DNA from: a virus
DNA: 41,965 nt
Reading direction: 5' to 3' (one strand)
IMG/VR virus record: IMGVR_UViG_3300038548_000477
Location: 1 to 41,965 of that record
This document shows positions 4,555 to 24,420 of the stretch, piece by piece (the first letter of the stretch is position 1; each line of letters opens with the position of its first letter). A program made the position numbers and the translations under genes. Below the pieces are notes generated by a model. That model was not told the origin of the DNA. It ran no database searches and was given only the letters and a program-made list of their open reading frames with translations.

Positions 4555-4977
4555 TTACGACAACGAGTCGATCGCTCCGGTAGTCGGTAGCTCCGGTTCC
4601 TCCGAGTTGAGGATCGCGTGAGCTTCGCGCCAACGCGCGACCTTCTCCGGCGTACGCCAACAGTCGGACGGAACTCGGTTGTAGAGAAACATCACGAGAC
4701 CCGGTAGCGCTTGGCGGTTCGTCTCGTCGGCGCGACCTACCGCTTCGGCGAGATCGTTCGTCACGACCGCGTCGAGGAAGTGACCGAGCGGACCGCCGAA
4801 CTTGACGTATTGAGCGAGCGAGTTCCAGACCGCGGTACTCGCGACTCCGTCGCCGGGTTGGAATAGACCGTCGAGGTCGAATTGCCACCGATCCCTAACC
4901 GCTCGCGCGACTCCGATAGTCCGTTCGAGTTCCGGACTCCGCTCGATCGTCGTCGAGCCTTCTTCGCTTTCCGTCAT
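4555..4977 (-). CDS. hypothetical protein
   Basis: 140 residues from ATG at 4977, preceded by an ideal ribosome binding site (GGAGG about 8 nt upstream). Mostly helical, with tryptophans in the first 60 residues and a WRTPEKVARWREA segment near residue 107. No known domain recognised. The strong ribosome binding site and the terminator just downstream suggest a separately expressed gene. Confidence 0.75.
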   Translation of the reverse strand: MTESEEGSTTIERSPELERTIGVARAVRDRWQFDLDGLFQPGDGVASTAVWNSLAQYVKFGGPLGHFLDAVVTNDLAEAVGRADETNRQALPGLVMFLYNRVPSDCWRTPEKVARWREAHAILNSEEPELPTTGAIDSLS

Positions 4978-5113
4978 TCCTAACCTCCTTGTTGTTGGTA
5001 ACGCTCCGCGGAGAACGACTACCGGGGCGCGGGGAATGACCCGACGCGACCGAGAGAGAGCCCTCCGCGGAACGCCGAGAGACCCTACCCTGCCGAGGGA
5101 CGAAAGTCCCGCG

Positions 5114-15959: not shown

Positions 15960-16777
15960 CTACTCTCGTTCCTCCATCGCTTTACCGGACTCCGCGCGAC
16001 GGTCGCGGATCGCGCGGATCTCGCGACGCCAGACCTTATCGAGCGACTGAATAACCGCGGTGAACTCCGCTCGCTCGTCGGTCTCGATCCCGTTGTTGTT
16101 AAACCACGATTCCATTTCGCGCTGCGTTATCGGTTCCATCCCGTCGAGCCCGGACTCGCGGCTCTGCTGTAGATCCTGGAACGCCGTCCACTGGTCGCGG
16201 TGCTCGTCGGGAATGTCAGGCATCGCCGCGAGAGCGGGAACGACCTCGCCGTTCCCCTCCGCGTCTAACCTGCGTTGCTTTTTGAAAAGAACTCGGAGAT
16301 GCGTCGGCGACTGGCCCCACTCGATTAGGAAGGTGAGGCAGCGGGTGAGTTTCCCACCGTCTCTTCTTTCGCCTCTGCCGCGTGCGCCGCTAGGTTCGCG
16401 CCGCACTCGTGAACGAACTCGACGATGTCGCCGTGCGCCGGATCGTTGAAGACTTCCTCCGCGCGAGTCGTCGAGAACTTGTCTTCGGTCCCGTCGTCGT
16501 TCTCGACCCCGTCCCAGTCCTGGATAAGTTCGAGCGCGAGATCGATTTGCATGACCTGCATCGAATTGTCGCCGAGTCGGAACCCGCCAGAAGAGAAGCG
16601 ATCGCCGGGTCGCGTGTCGAGGTGACGTCGCGCGAGTCCGCGCTGCTTCCTCTTGTAACTCGCGCTCGCCGTCGAGCCGACCTTGAACCTGATCGTCTTT
16701 TCGACGCCGTCGGGATCCACGTAGTATTCGAACCACCGTCCGTCGTCGGTGATCCGAACTTTGCTCAGTCGAGCCAT
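15960..16777 (-). CDS. tail assembly chaperone long form (GT-like, -1 frameshift)
   Basis: The short chaperone frame (start 16777) can shift by -1 at G GGA AAC (16349-16355) and continue in a frame that ends at 15960. The product would have 143 plus 129 residues, 272 in all. The downstream frame has no good start of its own and codes for a credible helical domain (LTFLIEWGQ, then SWFNNNGIETDERAEFTAV). This is the usual arrangement of lambda G/GT and its analogues: both forms coat the tape measure during assembly and leave before the virion is complete. Confidence 0.85.
16325..16777 (-). CDS. tail assembly chaperone short form (G-like)
   Basis: 150 residues from ATG at 16777, preceded by GGAGAA. 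N-terminal beta-rich domain (GRWFEYYVDPDGVEKTIRF) followed by a helical part, and an alanine-rich end after the shift site. The position, between tube and tape measure, and the overlapping second frame define the role. Zero-frame translation ends at 16325. Confidence 0.88.
   Translation of the reverse strand: MARLSKVRITDDGRWFEYYVDPDGVEKTIRFKVGSTASASYKRKQRGLARRHLDTRPGDRFSSGGFRLGDNSMQVMQIDLALELIQDWDGVENDDGTEDKFSTTRAEEVFNDPAHGDIVEFVHECGANLAAHAAEAKEETVGNSPAASPS
16349..16355 (-). promoter_or_regulatory. -1 ribosomal frameshift site G GGA AAC
   Basis: The heptamer GGGAAAC lies in the zero frame as G GGA AAC, the X XXY YYZ form. After slippage both codons pair again as GGG AAA, and reading continues CTC ACC CGC into the long chaperone frame. 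It is close to the lambda G/GT site. Confidence 0.85.
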
Positions 16778-16832: not shown

Positions 16833-18071
16833 TTAAACCTTGAACTTCCAGATCCGAATCGCGGAGCGCTGAGCCTCGCCCGAAAGCGCCGACGCTTCCT
16901 GCTGAGCCTCGAAGGGGAGCGACGCGACGACGTCTTGATTCTGACCGCCCGCGACGGTGTCGCCGCCGCCGAACTGGCACGACGGGATCTCGATCACGTA
17001 CGCGTCGCCCACTCCGTTGTAGAGCATGTACGCGATCCGCGTCGTAGTGTACGCGAGGTGCTTGTCGACCTGAGTCGAGTCCGCGAAGAGCATCGTCACG
17101 CTGCCGGTAACCTCGCAGGTTCCGGAACCCATCGACTTCGGACCGAGGTTCCCTTGGACCTGTCTCGGGTGGTGTCCGTTCTTGACGTCGATCGTGATCT
17201 GCGTCATGTCGTACTCGATGTTGTTCTCGGCGAATGCCTTCATATCGTCGACGACGTTGAACTGCCGCGCGACTCCCGCTGCGATGATCGTCCCGCCGTC
17301 CTGCTTCGCGGTCGGTCGTCCGTCGCCGGGAGTGTGCGTCGCGTTGTCGCCCTCGAACTCCCGCTGACCCATGATGTGAAAAGTGATGTTCACGAACCCG
17401 TCGACGTCGGAGTCGATCGTGAACCCGTCGATCGTACAACCGGCGTAGAGCGCGAACTCCGCCGTGAGATCCTCGAAGTTCTTCTCGAAAGAGTACGAAT
17501 CGATTGCGGTGCCGGCGGCGGTCGCCTTGTTCCCGATCGAAACTCCTTGGACGAGAACCATCGCACTCGCAGCCTCCGTTATCAGGTCTTGGTTATCGAC
17601 CGTGATCGACGCACCGCCTTCGCCCAGGACTCGCATCGGACGATTGTTCGCCCCGTTCGTCGCGGAGTGGATAATGATGAAGTCGCCGGTATTGAAACCT
17701 GCTAGTCCCGATCCAGAATCCGCGATCGTGTTCGGTGCAGTGATCGAGATCGTCGTCGGGATCGGAGGGATGACCGTAGGGAAGACGTCCTGGAGACTCG
17801 ACTCCATCAACTCTTCGAAGGAGAGATCCTTCGAGAGTTCGCAGACGATATCGCCGGTCACTTCGAGCCCGGTCCGAATCACGTTCGAGATGTTCCGGTC
17901 GTTCCGGATCTCCGCCGACTTCTTCGTCGCCGTATTCTGAACGAGCGAGTCCGAAGCGTACCGCATGAAGCGATAGACCGCCGACCCCGTGTTCGGCACG
18001 CCATAGGCGACGTCTTCCTTCGCGTAGTTCAGGGAGACCCGATTGGTGTCGGCTTCCGTTGACGTGACCAT
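16833..18071 (-). CDS. major tail tube protein
   Basis: 412 residues from ATG at 18071, with AGGAAAGAG about 7 bases upstream; an earlier in-frame start would cover the terminator gene's end. The N-terminus (ADTNRVSLNYAKEDVAYG) and the repeated beta patterns match tail tube proteins of siphoviruses. The long form suggests extra surface domains: residues near 105-180 (ITAPNTIADSGSGLAGF to GGASITVDNQD) look like an inserted module. It polymerises around the tape measure. Confidence 0.85.
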   Translation of the reverse strand: MVTSTEADTNRVSLNYAKEDVAYGVPNTGSAVYRFMRYASDSLVQNTATKKSAEIRNDRNISNVIRTGLEVTGDIVCELSKDLSFEELMESSLQDVFPTVIPPIPTTISITAPNTIADSGSGLAGFNTGDFIIIHSATNGANNRPMRVLGEGGASITVDNQDLITEAASAMVLVQGVSIGNKATAAGTAIDSYSFEKNFEDLTAEFALYAGCTIDGFTIDSDVDGFVNITFHIMGQREFEGDNATHTPGDGRPTAKQDGGTIIAAGVARQFNVVDDMKAFAENNIEYDMTQITIDVKNGHHPRQVQGNLGPKSMGSGTCEVTGSVTMLFADSTQVDKHLAYTTTRIAYMLYNGVGDAYVIEIPSCQFGGGDTVAGGQNQDVVASLPFEAQQEASALSGEAQRSAIRIWKFKV

Positions 18072-18082
18072 GATTCTCTTTC

Positions 18083-19324
18083 CTAGCTCGTGAGGGTTTC
18101 GTAACTGAACGGGCAAGCGACGTTCACCTGCCACCACTTTCCGTCGCGACCTTCTCCTATCGAAGAGACGACCGGCGCTCGGAACGAGATCCCGTCGACC
18201 GACACCGACCGAAAGGCATCGGCGATGGTATCAGCGGTCTGGAGAGCGAGACCATCCCCGATCCCTAGCTGGACGAAAATCTGAGCGATCGCGAGCCCCG
18301 TCGTCCGGTGCGCGATGAACCCGCCGCGGTTCTCGACCGCGACGCTCCCGCCTTCGAGGATCGTAAAGCGGACCCACCTAGCGGTATCCGGCTGCGTGAA
18401 CGGAGCGTCGTCGTACAGGGTCGGAAGGGAATCCGGACCCTCGACCTGATCGCCGAACCACGTCCGGATCGAGTCGCCGACCTCGACGGGATCGAGGACC
18501 ACCCCGGATTCTGACCCGAGAGTCGGTCGCGTCGAGAAGTCCGACCGGAACGGGATCTCGACTTCCATCTCGTACCACCGCCCGTTCCGGCGAACCGGCG
18601 AGACGGTCGCGCTTCCGTAGTTGACGTCCTCGGCGATCTTCCCCTCGAACGCAGCGCGGATCGTCTTCGCGAGATCCCGGTCGTCGAAGTCGCCGTCGGT
18701 CAGCGGAGCTTTGATCGTCGCGAGGAGGACTCCCTCCATCCGGTACGCCCGCGTGCCGGCGGTCGAGATCATCGTCGTGTTCTCGTGCTTGATCGAGCAG
18801 CGGACCCAGAGACCGGTCTCTAAGTGCATACTCGCGAAGTCGAAGTAGACGAACCTTCCGACGGTGGGGGCGGAGGTCGTTGTAAAAACAACGGTGCCCG
18901 CGAGGTCTGCCGGGTCGGGATTGACTTCCAGCGTGATCCGTTGCCACGCATCCCTGATCCCCATGTCGGCGCTCTGACGGGATAGGTCGAGGACCGCGCC
19001 CACCCAAGTCCCGGAGTCGACGATCTTGATAATTCCGCCGTCCCAATCGGACGGTATGTAGACCCAGATTTCCGCAATGTAGTTTTGGGGGGTAAGTATC
19101 AGACCGCCGAAGTGTGCTGCCAGAGCGTTGTGATTCTGATACGTCGCCTTAAGCGAGAGGCTCCCCTCGAAAACTTGCTCGGAGGTAGCTTCGATGATGT
19201 TCGCGCCGAACGTCTGCCAGTTCACCGTACCCTCCTCGATACTCGGGTTCAGCATGAGGTTGACCCGCGCCGCCGCCGGTCCTCCGGCGAGCTTCGCGTT
19301 ATCGTACTGGGTCGGCGTAGGCAT
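18083..19324 (-). CDS. tail terminator-like protein: duplicated domain with inserted carbohydrate-binding-like module
   Basis: 413 residues, ATG at 19324 in TAATG overlap. Residues 275-413 look like a complete tail terminator domain of the DUF4128 kind: IRTWFGDQVEG, PTLYDDAPF, ARWVRF, then DGKWWQVNVACPF. Residues 173-262 repeat its C-terminal part (LWVRCSI, IRAAFEGKIAED, NGRWYEMEVEIPF), and residues 4-20 (PTQYDNAKL ... AAAR) match its N-terminal part. Between these, residues 21-172 look like a carbohydrate-binding module of the CBM4/9 type (NLMLNPSIEEG start, VYFDFASMHLETG end). So the first domain copy is interrupted exactly at the ARW-VRF position. Domain calls come from reading; the internal alignment is direct. 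Confidence 0.75.
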   Translation of the reverse strand: MPTPTQYDNAKLAGGPAAARVNLMLNPSIEEGTVNWQTFGANIIEATSEQVFEGSLSLKATYQNHNALAAHFGGLILTPQNYIAEIWVYIPSDWDGGIIKIVDSGTWVGAVLDLSRQSADMGIRDAWQRITLEVNPDPADLAGTVVFTTTSAPTVGRFVYFDFASMHLETGLWVRCSIKHENTTMISTAGTRAYRMEGVLLATIKAPLTDGDFDDRDLAKTIRAAFEGKIAEDVNYGSATVSPVRRNGRWYEMEVEIPFRSDFSTRPTLGSESGVVLDPVEVGDSIRTWFGDQVEGPDSLPTLYDDAPFTQPDTARWVRFTILEGGSVAVENRGGFIAHRTTGLAIAQIFVQLGIGDGLALQTADTIADAFRSVSVDGISFRAPVVSSIGEGRDGKWWQVNVACPFSYETLTS

Positions 19325-20721
19325 TAGACGTCCTCGACTTCGTTCCCGAAGCGCTTCCGGATCTTGTTCGCGAGGGTCTCATAGAACCCGGTCGCTAGCA
19401 AGGTACCCGTGATGACGGTCTCGACGATCGCGATCGACTCGTTGATCACGAGGATGAACCCACCCTGCGGGACGACGGTCTCCGCGATCGAGATCGGATC
19501 GTCGACTACCCGAACGAGACCGCGCGGCGTGAAGAGCGTCTCCGCGATCGCTACCGTCTCGTCGACTACCCTGGTCAGTCCGCGCGGCGTAAAGATCGTC
19601 TCCGCGATCGCGACGGTCTCGTCGACTACTCGGGTCAGGGCGGCTACGCGGACGACGTCCTCCGCGATCGCTACCGCCTCGTTCACGACGCGGGTCATCG
19701 CCATCGTAGTAACGACGTTCTCTGCTACGGCGATCGCTTCGTCGACGACGCGGATAATCCCTCGAACCGTGACGACGGTCTCCGCAATCGAGATCGACTC
19801 GTTGACGACGAGCGTGAGCGCGATCGCGAGTTGAGTGACGACGACCTCGACGACGGCGATCGCCTCGTCGACGACGCGGACCAGACCGAGAGGAGTAAAG
19901 ACCGTCTCGGCTACCGCGATCGCTTCGTCGACTACCCGAGTCAGAGCGGCGACCGGAACAACCGTCTCCGCTACGGCGATCGCTTCGTCGACTACCCGAG
20001 TCAGGGCGGCGACCGGGACAACCGTCTCCGCTACCGCGATCGCCTCGTCAACTACCCGAGTCAGAGCGGCGACTCGAACCACCGTCTCCGAGATCGTGAT
20101 CGCCTCGTCGATCACGAGAATGATCGAGGTAGCGAGTTGGGTAACAACGACCTCGACGATCGCTATCGCTTCGTCGACTACGCGGACGAGACCTCGGAGC
20201 GTGACGACCGTCTCCGCGACGGCGATCGCCTCGTCAACTACCCGAGTCAGAGCCCCAACCCGGATGACCGTCTCCGCTACGGCGACCGCTTCGTCGACGA
20301 CGCGGGTCAGGGCGGCGACTCGAACAACTACCTCCGCGATCGCTACCGCCTCGTCGACGACCCGAGTAATCGCGACGATCCGAACTACCGTCTCAGAAAT
20401 CGTGATCGAATCGTCGACGACGACGACGATGGCTCCCGCGACCTGAGTAACGACGACCTCTGCGATCGCGATCGCTTCATCGACAACTCGCACGAGACCG
20501 AGAGGGGTGATAACCGTCTCCGCGATCGCTATCGCTTCGTCGACTACCCTCGTGATCGCGACGATCCGAACGACCGTCTCCGCAACGACGATCGACTCGT
20601 CGACGACGCGGACGAATGCCTGCGGTCCGGTCGGAGCCGGGATCGCGGCGATCGGCGGACGCGGAGCGGGCACGACCACGTTCGGTCGATATACGCCCAG
20701 ACCTCCGTGGTGCCACGTCAT
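19324..20721 (-). CDS. 20-copy short-repeat virion protein
   Basis: 465 residues, ATG at 20721. Residues 1-35 are proline-rich. Residues 36-441 are twenty units of 20 residues (three units are 22) with the core RVVDEAIAVAETVV; positions of valine, the D/N-E pair and the E-[TV]-V end are nearly fixed. Alternating hydrophobics suggest stacked beta strands, as in a fibre or solenoid. The C-terminal 24 residues leave the repeat: IRKRFGNEVED at 454-464 matches IRTWFGDQVEG of the terminator domain in the next gene. Function is unknown; a fibre, adhesin or spacer on the virion is a reasonable guess from its position among accessory virion genes. Confidence 0.8.
   Translation of the reverse strand: MTWHHGGLGVYRPNVVVPAPRPPIAAIPAPTGPQAFVRVVDESIVVAETVVRIVAITRVVDEAIAIAETVITPLGLVRVVDEAIAIAEVVVTQVAGAIVVVVDDSITISETVVRIVAITRVVDEAVAIAEVVVRVAALTRVVDEAVAVAETVIRVGALTRVVDEAIAVAETVVTLRGLVRVVDEAIAIVEVVVTQLATSIILVIDEAITISETVVRVAALTRVVDEAIAVAETVVPVAALTRVVDEAIAVAETVVPVAALTRVVDEAIAVAETVFTPLGLVRVVDEAIAVVEVVVTQLAIALTLVVNESISIAETVVTVRGIIRVVDEAIAVAENVVTTMAMTRVVNEAVAIAEDVVRVAALTRVVDETVAIAETIFTPRGLTRVVDETVAIAETLFTPRGLVRVVDDPISIAETVVPQGGFILVINESIAIVETVITGTLLATGFYETLANKIRKRFGNEVEDV
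19399..20616 (-). repeat. 60-bp tandem repeat array (20 units)
   Basis: About 1.2 kb of head-to-tail, in-frame 60-bp units (three of 66 bp) inside the 465-residue gene. Neighbouring units 10 and 11 are identical at the protein level. The 66-bp units are the 3rd, 8th and 13th, so a five-unit higher-order period is visible. Copy number could change by recombination. Confidence 0.9.
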
Positions 20722-20724
20722 CGG

Positions 20725-21186
20725 CTAGGCCACCTCGTACTCCCGCCACGTCACCGAATACCGAATATCGAATCCGGTTACCGCAATGAGGGACATCGCA
20801 AAATCGTCGTCGGGTCGGAGCCACAACTGCATCTCCGGCGTCGGCAGGAAAACCGCTTCGTTGACGTTGTTAAACCCCATGCGATACGACCAGTCGACGC
20901 CGGTCACTTCCGTGGTCGGTGTCTCTTGAATCATTTGGGCTATCGATATCGGTTGACCCTGCACCCAGTTTGTTTCGAAGATATTTGAGCCGCCCGCGCC
21001 GCCCGTTCCTCGCTCCAACTTGATACCCTCCGAAATTACTGTATTGGCTGCGGTGGTGACCCTAGCCTCCAGGATCTCGACGAGAACGGCAGAGGTAGAA
21101 CGCAGTTGACAGAACTGAGTGGCGTCGATGATGGTCAGAGCCCCCGAGAGCGAAGTATACTGACCTAGAAATTGTCCTGCGATCAT
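20725..21186 (-). CDS. virion accessory protein, paralogue A
   Basis: 153 residues, ATG at 21186. Shares with the next gene upstream (21193-21651) the patterns DATQF.QL, VEILE.RV, ERG.GGAGG, LPTPEMQLWLRP and a final S.TW.EY. Predicted beta sandwich. No named family; likely a small capsid- or tail-decorating protein because of its location between neck and tail genes. Confidence 0.75.
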   Translation of the reverse strand: MIAGQFLGQYTSLSGALTIIDATQFCQLRSTSAVLVEILEARVTTAANTVISEGIKLERGTGGAGGSNIFETNWVQGQPISIAQMIQETPTTEVTGVDWSYRMGFNNVNEAVFLPTPEMQLWLRPDDDFAMSLIAVTGFDIRYSVTWREYEVA

Positions 21187-21192
21187 CGCTCT

Positions 21193-21651
21193 CTACCCAG
21201 CGTCGTACTCGTTCCAGGTCAGGGAGTATCCGATCGTCAGGATATCAGTCCCAGTCAGACGCACGCCGAGATCGTCGCTCGGTCGCAGCCACAACTGCAT
21301 CTCCGGCGTCGGTAGCCAGATCGCCTCTTGGAGAATATTCCAGCCGACGCGGTAGGTGAAGTCGAGCGTGCCGACCTCCGACGACGGAGCAGCGTGGTTC
21401 ACAGTCCCGACCGCTGCCGCCCCGCCAGCGACCCACTTGCTAACCGTCGCTGCCGTGCCGCCGGCACCGCCGACGCCGCGTTCGATGACGATTCCATTCA
21501 ACGCGATAGCCGTATCAGCGGTTTGGAATACGCGAAGCTCCAGAATCTCGATACAGACTCCCGCCGCCCCGATCAACTGGATGAACTGCGTCGCGTCCGA
21601 GACGGCAACGGAATCCGCGGACGCGGTGAACTGACCTTGTTTTTGTTTCAT
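21193..21651 (-). CDS. virion accessory protein, paralogue B
   Basis: 152 residues, ATG at 21651. Colinear with the 20725-21186 protein over its whole length and clearly a tandem duplicate (roughly 35-40% identity by eye). Contains DATQFIQL near residue 19 and PTPEMQLWLRPSDD near 118. Function unknown. Confidence 0.75.
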   Translation of the reverse strand: MKQKQGQFTASADSVAVSDATQFIQLIGAAGVCIEILELRVFQTADTAIALNGIVIERGVGGAGGTAATVSKWVAGGAAAVGTVNHAAPSSEVGTLDFTYRVGWNILQEAIWLPTPEMQLWLRPSDDLGVRLTGTDILTIGYSLTWNEYDAG

Positions 21652-21653
21652 GT

Positions 21654-22292
21654 CTACATCCTCAAGTGCGGTGCTGGTGCCACGATCTCTTGGTAGCGTT
21701 TCAGGTAGGTGCTGTGAGCGAACGGAGCGTCGATCTCGATAGTACAGTTCGCGTGCGGAGACGGATAAGCGAACATCACGGAACCACCCTTATCGACGAT
21801 CCGAAACTCGATCGAATCGGCGTCGGAGAGGTCCAACTCGCGGAGTTGGAAGCAGTACTCGACCGCCCAGTATTCGTCTAAGGCAAACGACTTGTTCGGC
21901 GTCTTCCCGTCGACCTCGTCGACCGCGTCGTTATCCGCGGTGAACGGTCCCGCCCCAACGAAAGTTACCCCGTGCTCCGTCGTGTCTTCGTTGTTAGTCA
22001 GGTTCGCCGACGCCGACGACCGCACCACGCTGCTAGCATCGGTAACGTCTAAGAAACCATCGGAGTTCCTATCGTACTGAAGCTGCCACCCGTTACCGCC
22101 GCCGGCAATCCCGACGAGCGTGACGTGCATCGAGAACCGGAGCCGTAGATTGATGTCTAGCTGGTCCTGAGCGAAGATGATGGTCGTGTCTTCCGCTACG
22201 AGGAACGTCGCGCCGGTCGACGACTCGTCACCGTCGTCGTCGCGCCAGTGCCAGTGGTCCTCGTGGATTTCCGGAACGTCCATTCCCGCCAT
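21654..22292 (-). CDS. virion accessory protein, beta-rich
   Basis: 212 residues, ATG at 22292. Starts with HEDHWHWRDDDGDE, a pattern seen at the start of many phage and prophage beta-sandwich surface proteins. The remainder alternates strand-like segments (INLRLRFSMHVTLVG, CTIEIDAPF). A lectin-like or decorating role is possible but not shown. Confidence 0.7.
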   Translation of the reverse strand: MAGMDVPEIHEDHWHWRDDDGDESSTGATFLVAEDTTIIFAQDQLDINLRLRFSMHVTLVGIAGGGNGWQLQYDRNSDGFLDVTDASSVVRSSASANLTNNEDTTEHGVTFVGAGPFTADNDAVDEVDGKTPNKSFALDEYWAVEYCFQLRELDLSDADSIEFRIVDKGGSVMFAYPSPHANCTIEIDAPFAHSTYLKRYQEIVAPAPHLRM

Positions 22293-22295
22293 GAT

Positions 22296-22754
22296 TCAGT
22301 CCTCATGCGCGGGTAGGACCATCGCGGGATCGAGGTTCGCGCTCTTTACCCGGACGTGTTCGTCGGACTTCGAGCGGTCGATCAGTTCGTAGTATCGGTC
22401 GGTGCTCATGTACTCGCCGAGTTTCACTATGCCGTACTGACCGGACATCGCAGGTAGAAGTCTCGACTCGACCCCGGAGAACGTCAGAGCCGGACCGCCG
22501 CGAGTCTGCGGAGCGAGAGCGTAGTACTGCTCCTTCCCGCGGAGAGTGAAGCGACCGACGACCGGATCCTCGACGAGACCGATCCCGACGCCGAACGCGG
22601 GCATCTCGACGAACGATCGCGGGAGGGAGAAGACGGTCTGTTCGAGATCCTCCGGACCGCCGCCGCGGTAGACCTTCCCGTCCGTGTAGTAGAAAGAGAA
22701 CCGCGGGAACGTCCCGGCGTGGTCACACTGGCAGGTAGGGCATTCGCATGTCAC
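22296..22754 (-). CDS. Cys-rich hypothetical virion protein
   Basis: 152 residues from GTG at 22754 in GTGA overlap. The N-terminus is CECPTCQCDHAG: five candidate metal ligands in twelve residues, so a zinc or iron site is likely. The remainder is beta-rich. Longer in-frame readings upstream lie over the neighbouring gene. Family unknown. Confidence 0.68.
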   Translation of the reverse strand: MTCECPTCQCDHAGTFPRFSFYYTDGKVYRGGGPEDLEQTVFSLPRSFVEMPAFGVGIGLVEDPVVGRFTLRGKEQYYALAPQTRGGPALTFSGVESRLLPAMSGQYGIVKLGEYMSTDRYYELIDRSKSDEHVRVKSANLDPAMVLPAHED

Positions 22755-23341
22755 GTCAGCTTCCGCCAGTCCTCCAATCGGTCGCGCGGACCTCCGAAGC
22801 TCGCCGCGTCGTTCGCGAACTCGAACATCTGATTGCACGATCGAAGCGCTACGCGAGCGTCGTTGACGAGCGCTTCCGTCGCGGTATTGGTAGCGTCGGA
22901 GATGTTCAACTGAACCGCCGACTGAGCGTCCGAATCCCCACCCTGGAAGCTCTTGAACTCCGCCCACGCTTCGTCTCCCGCGACGAGCGCGTTCCTAAGA
23001 GCGCGGATCAGAGGTCGGACCTCGGCGACCATCGGGTTCTTACCGAAGCTGAACCCGAGACCGCGGAACGCCGTCAAGCGATCGGCCTGGATCGGCGACG
23101 CTTCCTGGTTCGCGAAGTTGTAGAGTTCCTCCGCCTTCTCTAGCGCCACGCGGACGAGAATGATATCGACGAGATCCCACATCTCTTCAGAGTTGATCGT
23201 CTCGTCGCTCCGACCCGCCTGAAAGACCAGCCACGAGAGGTAATACTCGTGAGCGGAGAGGAGCCCGGTCTTGATCTGAACCGAGCATCGAGACGCGAGC
23301 GTTTCGAGGTCGGTCCAGTCCCAGAGATCGTGATGACTCAT
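22751..23341 (-). CDS. helical hypothetical protein
   Basis: 196 residues, ATG at 23341. Predicted all-helical with several tryptophans at the start (HHDLWDWTDLE) and many aspartates and alanines. Sits between neck genes and the accessory virion cluster. No family recognised. Confidence 0.7.
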   Translation of the reverse strand: MSHHDLWDWTDLETLASRCSVQIKTGLLSAHEYYLSWLVFQAGRSDETINSEEMWDLVDIILVRVALEKAEELYNFANQEASPIQADRLTAFRGLGFSFGKNPMVAEVRPLIRALRNALVAGDEAWAEFKSFQGGDSDAQSAVQLNISDATNTATEALVNDARVALRSCNQMFEFANDAASFGGPRDRLEDWRKLT

Positions 23342-23350
23342 CGCGCTTTC

Positions 23351-24001
23351 CTACGCTCCGTTGAACGTGTGATTGATGTAGACGACGAGCGTATCGCTCG
23401 ACGACTTCGTGACCGCGAGACCGTCGGCCCACATCAGCATCGCTTCGGTCGCACCCGGCGTCGGATTCGTCAGGTCACAGTCGTCGAGCGCCGCCGCGTC
23501 CGACCAGTCGCCCGCGGTGTACGAGACCTTGTAAGTGAGAACGTCCGCGCCCTTTCCGGAGTTATCCGCGTCGAGGTCGTTCACCTTCGGGTAGGTGCCG
23601 TCCATCGACTTGAGCGTGGTTCCCGACGTCGGGTTCGCCTTCGAGGTCATCCCCGAACGGTTCGCCGCCTTCGTCGGCGCGACGGAGACCGACTTGAACA
23701 TCTCCAACTGACCGTCGAACGCGAACGGCGTTCCCGCGACGGTGAAGTTCGAAGGGATGGTCGCCGCGACGCCAAGTTCGGCGTAGTAAAGATCACCCGC
23801 GTCGAGCACGAGGTTCCGGCTCTTGTGGATCGACTTGATCTGACCCGTCTCCGCGTCGCGGAGAATGCACCGAACCTCGCCGTGGATTCGATAGCGGGAG
23901 TGGCCGAACTTCTTCTCGACGAAGAACGGGAACTTGTCGCCGTAGACCGTCCTCGGCTGCGCGACGATGATGTTGAAGCTCGGGATAGCGATAGCGGTCA
24001 T
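23351..24001 (-). CDS. structural protein, hypothetical
   Basis: 216 residues, ATG at 24001, overlapping the previous stop by 4 bp. Contains GEVRCILRDAETGQIKSIHKSRNLVLDAGDLYY, cited here in part only for its DAETG and NLVLDAGD marks, which are common in phage virion proteins of unknown role. The last 70 residues are beta-rich and polar. Probably on the virion surface. Confidence 0.7.
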   Translation of the reverse strand: MTAIAIPSFNIIVAQPRTVYGDKFPFFVEKKFGHSRYRIHGEVRCILRDAETGQIKSIHKSRNLVLDAGDLYYAELGVAATIPSNFTVAGTPFAFDGQLEMFKSVSVAPTKAANRSGMTSKANPTSGTTLKSMDGTYPKVNDLDADNSGKGADVLTYKVSYTAGDWSDAAALDDCDLTNPTPGATEAMLMWADGLAVTKSSSDTLVVYINHTFNGA

Positions 24002-24420
24002 GGGGAAACTCCTACGAACTGTTGACGGACTTCTTCGAGTGTGAGCGCGAGCATCCCGTTCGGAGCCTGGGTCGAGTGACCCTCTTCGAGCGGAATTATG
24101 TACTCGACGTTATTGCTGATGTAGACCACGGAGAACGGAGTCAGGTTCGCGAGCGCGGCGACCCCGGCGGCGATGGTAGCACCGCCCGCCTTATCTTTCA
24201 CGCCGGTCGGGATACTGGCGTCGATGAAGTTGATCGTCACTTGCCAGCCGCCCTTCGCTCGACCCGTATCGACCGGCGTCTTCTCGACGACGCCGGAGAG
24301 GACTTGGAGAACGACCTTCTGGTGGAAGTCGACGAGTTGCTGCGGGAGGAGGAGCTTTCCGAACCGGGTAATCTCCTTGTTGAACCTCGCGAGTTCGGCG
24401 TCGGCGAATCCGGTGGTCAT
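23998..24420 (-). CDS. head-tail connector, HK97 gp10-like neck protein
   Basis: 140 residues, ATG at 24420. Has the family pattern TPVDTGRAKGGWQV (residues 48-61) and VEYIIPLEEGHSTQAPNGM (near 105-123). These proteins join connector and tail in HK97-like phages. Order, following the two adaptor genes, agrees. Confidence 0.85.
   Translation of the reverse strand: MTTGFADAELARFNKEITRFGKLLLPQQLVDFHQKVVLQVLSGVVEKTPVDTGRAKGGWQVTINFIDASIPTGVKDKAGGATIAAGVAALANLTPFSVVYISNNVEYIIPLEEGHSTQAPNGMLALTLEEVRQQFVGVSP

Follow-up and report, generated by a model that had tools for sequence, protein, structure and literature searches.

A duplicated siphophage tail terminator with a predicted carbohydrate-binding-type insert and a first copy divided between two genes

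The gene immediately preceding that of the major tail protein in the structural operon of the studied siphophage, a member of a poorly known, uncultured phage group, encodes two copies of the tail terminator domain. The first of these (copy 1, T1) harbours an insert which is predicted to fold as a jelly roll of the carbohydrate-binding module (CBM) type. Judged from sequence and model, copy 1 is moreover split between two genes, its first helix being carried by the stalk protein encoded upstream. We consider it rather probable that the terminator ring of this phage doubles as a collar, namely a hetero- or pseudo-hexamer whose copy-1 subunits would anchor outward-pointing adhesin stalks. The window, i.e. 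the whole stretch of DNA which was analysed, comprises 41,965 nucleotides, and the features relevant to the argument are the following:

18083..19324, minus strand: 413-aa ORF, duplicated tail terminator with CBM-fold insert (Pfam, PHROG, alignment, predicted structure)
19265..19324, minus strand: residues 1-20, strand beta-1 of terminator copy 1 (MPTPTQYDNAKLAGGPAAAR)
18812..19264, minus strand: residues 21-171, predicted CBM_4_9/16/22-like jelly roll within the alpha1-beta loop of copy 1, not present in L004
18539..18811, minus strand: residues 172-262, body of copy 1 (most 10-residue blocks with pLDDT 84-97)
18086..18502, minus strand: residues 275-413, complete terminator copy 2 (TM 0.85 to the FCWL1 terminator, normalised by target)
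19324..20721, minus strand: upstream ORF of 465 aa with a unit of 20-22 residues (VVDEAIAIAETVV...) repeated about 20 times, the last ~21 residues assigned to helix 1 of copy 1
19327..19389, minus strand: predicted helix alpha-1 of copy 1 (GFYETLANKIRKRFGNEVEDV) at the C-terminus of the stalk ORF (alignment, conservation in L004, profile)
19322..19326, minus strand: TAATG stop/start overlap of stalk ORF and 413-aa ORF (translational coupling or split gene)
16833..18071, minus strand: major tail (tube) protein, the next gene after the terminator (Pfam Phage_tube_2, 9e-33; PDB 8xan_B, 2e-18)
23998..24420, minus strand: neck1/gp10-like tail completion protein (PHROG 169, 6e-38), which the terminator gene adjoins in plain relatives
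20725..24001, minus strand: six additional genes separating the neck protein from the stalk ORF

The duplicated terminator and its operon

The ORF runs from 19324 to 18083 on the minus strand and comprises 413 codons. A sequence-only reading of the window had placed the gene at 18083-19324, which is correct; the plus-strand reading of this stretch was discarded as its translation contains stops. The landmarks named in that reading are likewise found where it had put them, with AAAR ending at residue 20, LWVR beginning at residue 172 and VEIPF and VACPF closing the two copies.

The head part of the operon encodes portal, head morphogenesis protein, scaffold and major head protein, followed by a head-tail adaptor (PHROG 477), a head closure protein (PHROG 161) and the neck1/gp10-like protein (PHROG 169). 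Six small genes, the repeat-rich ORF, the 413-aa gene and the Phage_tube_2 major tail protein come thereafter, and the operon ends with the tail chaperone, the tape measure and tip proteins with domains resembling those of roseophages and gene transfer agents. Immediately ahead of the major tail protein, the 413-aa gene occupies the usual place of a terminator, with the PHROG 169 protein upstream and Phage_tube_2 downstream; six genes plus the stalk ORF intervene on the neck side. At the position of the tail chaperone (15960-16777, minus strand) two overlapping frames are present, a layout typical of programmed frameshifting that yields G and GT products.

None of the six extra genes (20725..24001) gives a Pfam match. 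Two adjacent ones (20725-21186 and 21193-21651, minus strand) form a tandem pair of paralogs with 45% identity over 148 residues. Right after the neck gene, 23351-24001 (minus strand) encodes a 216-aa protein, which is among the genes lacking a Pfam match; L021, a locus with a duplicated terminator, possesses a 43% relative of it in the corresponding position, and we regard it as a candidate neck fibre or decoration protein.

That the terminator domain is duplicated, as had been claimed from internal alignment, is borne out both by sequence comparison and by predicted structure. The body of copy 1 aligns to copy 2 with a BLAST E of 4e-10 and 29% identity, a score reached by none of 2000 shuffles. 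Pfam Phage_tail_terminator_5 (PF13554; 9e-11, 42.4 bits at a cut-off of 27) and PHROG 179 'tail terminator' (9e-34) each match in two stretches, and an HMM built from single-copy relatives only recognises both copies with 61.8 bits (residues 166-262) and 134.6 bits (281-411). An AlphaFold2 model calculated from an alignment of 30 sequences is of high confidence over most of both terminator domains. The terminator fold, two helices flanking a four-strand sheet, is complete in copy 2 and, except for helix 1, in copy 1. When searched with Foldseek, the model matches the terminators of phages T1, FCWL1, T5, lambda and R4C, with TM values to solved terminators, normalised by target, of 0.85 and 0.83. 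Nearly all BFVD matches of the model are single-domain proteins and the terminator ORFs of the cultured relatives which were checked are short; a search of genome contigs with the terminator alignment returned no relative.

The insert and the division of copy 1

In copy 1, strand beta-1 (TQYDNA) precedes the insert (residues 21-171), and the first long strand (LWVRCSI) follows it. Pfam CBM_4_9 (PF02018) matches it with 23.9 bits, i.e. below the cut-off of 25.9, at an E of 6e-5. A start-motif scan of viral contigs for phage CBM-like modules provided 86 stretches. An HMM of 22 phage CBM-like modules, from which the insert was excluded, gives 45.0 bits over insert residues 1-143 counted from the NLMLN start and, after removal of the selected start motif, 18.8 bits compared to a best value of 11.3 in 1000 shuffles, both scores being somewhat flattering because some seeds had been picked by similarity to the insert. 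As the AlphaFold2 model of the terminator left the insert unresolved for want of an alignment, a second model was calculated from 29 phage CBM-like modules. It is all-beta with a pLDDT of 78.7 and a pTM of 0.78, and its top PDB matches in Foldseek are CBM16, CBM22 and CBM4 at TM values of about 0.6-0.76. The assignment of the insert to the CBM-type beta-sandwich jelly rolls is thus supported by sequence and model, as is the claim that about 150 residues resembling a CBM4/9-type module interrupt copy 1 after residue 20. The sequence-only reading had expected structure prediction to return two terminator folds with a jelly roll in the insert, and this is what was found. Searched alone against viral contigs and phages, the insert gave no match, and no CBM_4_9 was detected in 44 records of relatives; hence the insert has no close relative there, and one contig only has been found to contain it. 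We regard it as a probable sugar-binding module.

The description of copy 1 as interrupted holds but is incomplete, since this copy is, in addition, split over two genes. What the earlier reading had missed is that, according to AlphaFold2, copy 1 lacks its N-terminal helix within the 413-aa ORF, the corresponding helix of copy 2 being formed by residues 279-298. At the junction the upstream ORF reads ...GFYETLANKIRKRFGNEVEDV-stop, upon which ATG-CCT... opens the 413-aa ORF as MPTPTQYDNA. Taken across the gene boundary, helix 1 aligns gap-free with IRTWFGDQVEGPDSLPTLYDDA of copy 2 (0 of 5000 shuffles) and also with NAIRTRFNTEVEDAHPVAVAYENA of the uninterrupted copy 1 of L021. Positions 4-20 of the helix profile fall into the stalk ORF and the profile resumes at position 24 in the 413-aa ORF. 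Since the profile match of the stalk-ORF helix alone is weak (7.0 bits compared to 7.2 for the top shuffle), the assignment relies on where the helix lies, on its pairwise match and on its conservation in L004. In this closest relative the same split occurs at the same TAATG, and on both sides of it the differences between window and L004 are mostly located at third codon positions, each in its own frame. Alignment and model thus indicate that two genes share copy 1 between them, the stalk ORF upstream supplying its first helix. A terminator-profile alignment just upstream of the ATG of L004 and in its frame was not counted as there is no start codon.

The upstream ORF contains 20 repeat motifs with a spacing of 20 or 22 residues, and we read this repeat part as a stalk. 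Pfam and PHROG searches of the ORF gave no match to neck passage structure (NPS) proteins, its N-terminal region consisting mostly of repeats.

Relatives and the position of the chain break

In the 72% identical L004, the split and both copies are retained and only the CBM insert is missing, YDNVRLDPPSSGVWIRC of L004 corresponding to YDNAKLAGGPAAAR-(CBM)-LWVRC of the window. This locus is hence a relative without the insert, of the kind for which the earlier reading had proposed to search, and it is a split duplicate like that of the window. Elsewhere the duplicated terminator is encoded in one chain. Manatee Spring phage (MW202657, L003) possesses a single chain of 546 aa (ORF UOF80047) with an N-terminal region, small-residue repeats and two terminator domains. 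L013 encodes one chain of 1095 aa in which a large unassigned N-terminal region precedes both copies (about 820 residues fused ahead of the duplicated terminator; L013:5097-7556). In L022 and L024 repeats and both copies are combined in one chain, and L021 comprises both copies devoid of a stalk or other parts. L010-L012 and L016/L017 represent a third arrangement in which stalk and copy 1 share an ORF and copy 2 is encoded by the next, the two overlapping by ATGA. L011 and L017 had been considered plain single-copy terminators, which was rejected after an HMM scan of all frames revealed the duplication over two ORFs. Throughout, the order of stalk or large N-terminal region, copy 1 and copy 2 is constant, while the break either does not occur or is found between the copies or within copy 1; this is as expected if the parts assemble together. 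In a tree of the copies, which is poorly resolved, one clade for T1 is not rejected (p-AU 0.57).

Most relatives possess a plain single domain of about 135 residues starting less than 150 nt from the neck gene. This spacing is below 150 nt in 26 of 26 plain single-copy loci and at least 450 nt in all nine measurable loci with a duplicated terminator or extra domains, with L011 and L017 classed as duplicated. The latter loci harbour additional genes in this gap, which the plain single-copy relatives lack. Between neck protein and duplicated terminator of L003, positions 4571-5011 encode a member of the GP4 fibre I (Gp80, PF23140) family, relatives of which are present at the same place in L010 and L011.

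Extra parts are also seen on single-copy terminators. L051 encodes a 643-aa ORF (L051:7094-9022) with a weak fn3 match followed by one terminator domain and constitutes another candidate neck spike. By eye, its N-terminus appears beta-helix-like, and the N-terminal regions of both L051 and L004 look like parallel beta-helices; they show no significant Pfam match and do not align to each other. L025 carries an N-terminal domain and, between helix 1 and strand 1, a 70-residue insert. The single-copy terminators L025:1994-2914 and L040:5973-6635 both contain such an insert of about 70 residues, which resembles a small beta-domain and, by eye, an insert in the major tail protein of the window.

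A putative neck collar and its alternatives

Published terminators are hexamers which cap the tail tube and dock to the head (PMC11784142), and their two helices are located at the periphery (PMC10276861), which makes helix 1 a plausible outward anchor. The collar could have arisen as follows. A single terminator gene would have been duplicated, giving rise to T1 and T2 (copy 2); T2 would have kept the standard form and would cap the tail tube, while T1 would have turned into a carrier of surface domains. The ring would most likely consist of three T1 and three T2 in alternation, three T1-T2 chains replacing the usual six subunits, since a T1-T2 unit fills two of the six sites and thereby provides three T1 sites. 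In the window, the stalk protein would donate its C-terminal helix 1 to the T1 body produced from the next, translationally coupled gene and thus become fixed to the ring; in related phages the stalk is simply fused to T1. The predicted CBM-fold jelly roll occupies the helix1-strand1 loop of T1, that of T2 staying plain. Stalk and CBM would point outward at the head-tail joint and would probably recognise glycans on the host surface or in its surroundings, providing a loose first attachment. The helix1-strand1 loop makes contact with the neck hexamer in the terminator of cyanophage A-1(L) (PMC10966104); hence an insert of 150 residues at this place could disturb docking unless T2 alone serves this purpose.

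CBM-fold jelly rolls often do not bind sugar, which counts in favour of a purely structural function, in which T1, stalk and CBM fold are present in the ring as proposed and the extra domains serve no more than to stabilise the neck, to shield it or to organise the folding of fibres. In line with this, the CBM of the A-1(L) neck fibre did not bind the host (PMC10966104) and the neck collar of TP901-1 is reported to be non-essential for infection (PMC6669499). Between lineages, however, the terminator body is conserved whereas the N-terminal regions of T1 vary sharply, comprising repeats whose units differ, beta-helix-like regions or a large unassigned region. Such variation is seen in host-facing proteins, and we therefore hold mere decoration to be rather unlikely. 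A different objection would be that T1 is a decaying or non-ring duplicate which tolerates insertions, the terminator hexamer being made of T2 only. T1 copies are indeed more divergent than T2 as judged by their lower HMM scores, and insert and break both fall into T1. Yet, no duplicated lineage has lost an open and foldable T1 body, core positions such as the R, G and GD motifs and the WW/PF end are retained, conservation of helix 1 extends across the gene boundary, and the single origin of T1 which the tree does not reject likewise speaks against decay; this explanation appears distinctly improbable.

The split itself could reflect decoding only, a -1 (or +2) frameshift at TAATG generating a single stalk-T1-T2 chain as in L022 or L013. 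While relatives indeed encode the same order as one chain and L004 shows the same reading-frame offset, the 66 nt examined at the junction contain no X_XXY_YYZ slippery site in either phage, the 413-aa ORF of the window starts with ATG preceded by GAGG 7 nt upstream, and other relatives show ordinary ATGA overlaps between T1 and T2, which renders a frameshift highly improbable. As to an assembly artefact, i.e. a CBM insert or split originating from a chimeric contig or a sequencing error, the restriction of the insert to a single contig would fit. The identical split in the independent contig L004, however, and the placement of the insert, which is in frame, sits exactly at the loop and is bounded by CBM domain borders with the ORF staying open, make such an artefact scarcely conceivable. 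A terminator ring doubling as a collar remains our preferred reading.

Compared to the canonical siphophage terminators (lambda gpU, SPP1 gp17, T5 p142, T1 gp42, R4C gp18), each of the two domains shares the fold and the gene takes the same position between neck protein and major tail protein. While the former are built of six copies of one plain domain, two domains are present here, one of them split over two genes and equipped with a stalk and a CBM-fold insert. The cap/terminator PVC16 of extracellular contractile injection systems (eCIS) likewise contains a second terminator-like domain (PMC11784142), which is, however, C-terminal to the first, belongs to a contractile system and is not reported to bear an adhesin. 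UOF80047 of L003 is uncharacterised and annotated as hypothetical; in contrast to the split terminator of the window, it forms one chain, and no CBM_4_9 match is found in it.

The earlier reading had regarded adhesins at the head-tail joint as unusual. This part needs qualifying, as CBM-bearing neck adhesins are already known. The neck passage structures of lactococcal 936 and TP901-1 phages carry CBMs at a head-tail collar, in some groups other C-terminal folds (PMC6669499), and the neck fibres of A-1(L) are bead chains ending in a CBM (PMC10966104). The lactococcal NPS is, however, a separate protein on a BppU-like ring, neither terminator nor duplicated; the A-1(L) fibres are anchored via gp82 on the gp5 pentadecamer and not on the terminator (PMC10966104). 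A search of the literature, confined to open-licence papers, found no terminator with adhesin domains and none divided between two genes. It is hence the terminator itself as adhesin carrier which looks new.

More tentatively, and with somewhat less than even confidence, we suggest that a stalk donating its C-terminal helix to an alternating T1/T2 ring provides an exchangeable, host-facing stalk at a fixed head-tail socket, a mode of mounting adhesins not described before, and that this split terminator is a neck adhesion system in general use among a widespread group of uncultured phages. Tail terminators, so far treated as plain conserved caps, appear here as a modular platform for surface domains. 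The chain break, which is absent, lies between the copies or falls inside a domain, constitutes a natural experiment in how a ring protein may be split without loss. In metagenomic phages, candidate neck adhesins may in practice be flagged by additional genes which separate neck protein and terminator. Phage adhesion would thereby be extended from the tail tip to the tail terminator, which would offer an unexpected route to host recognition or to retention by capsule and biofilm.
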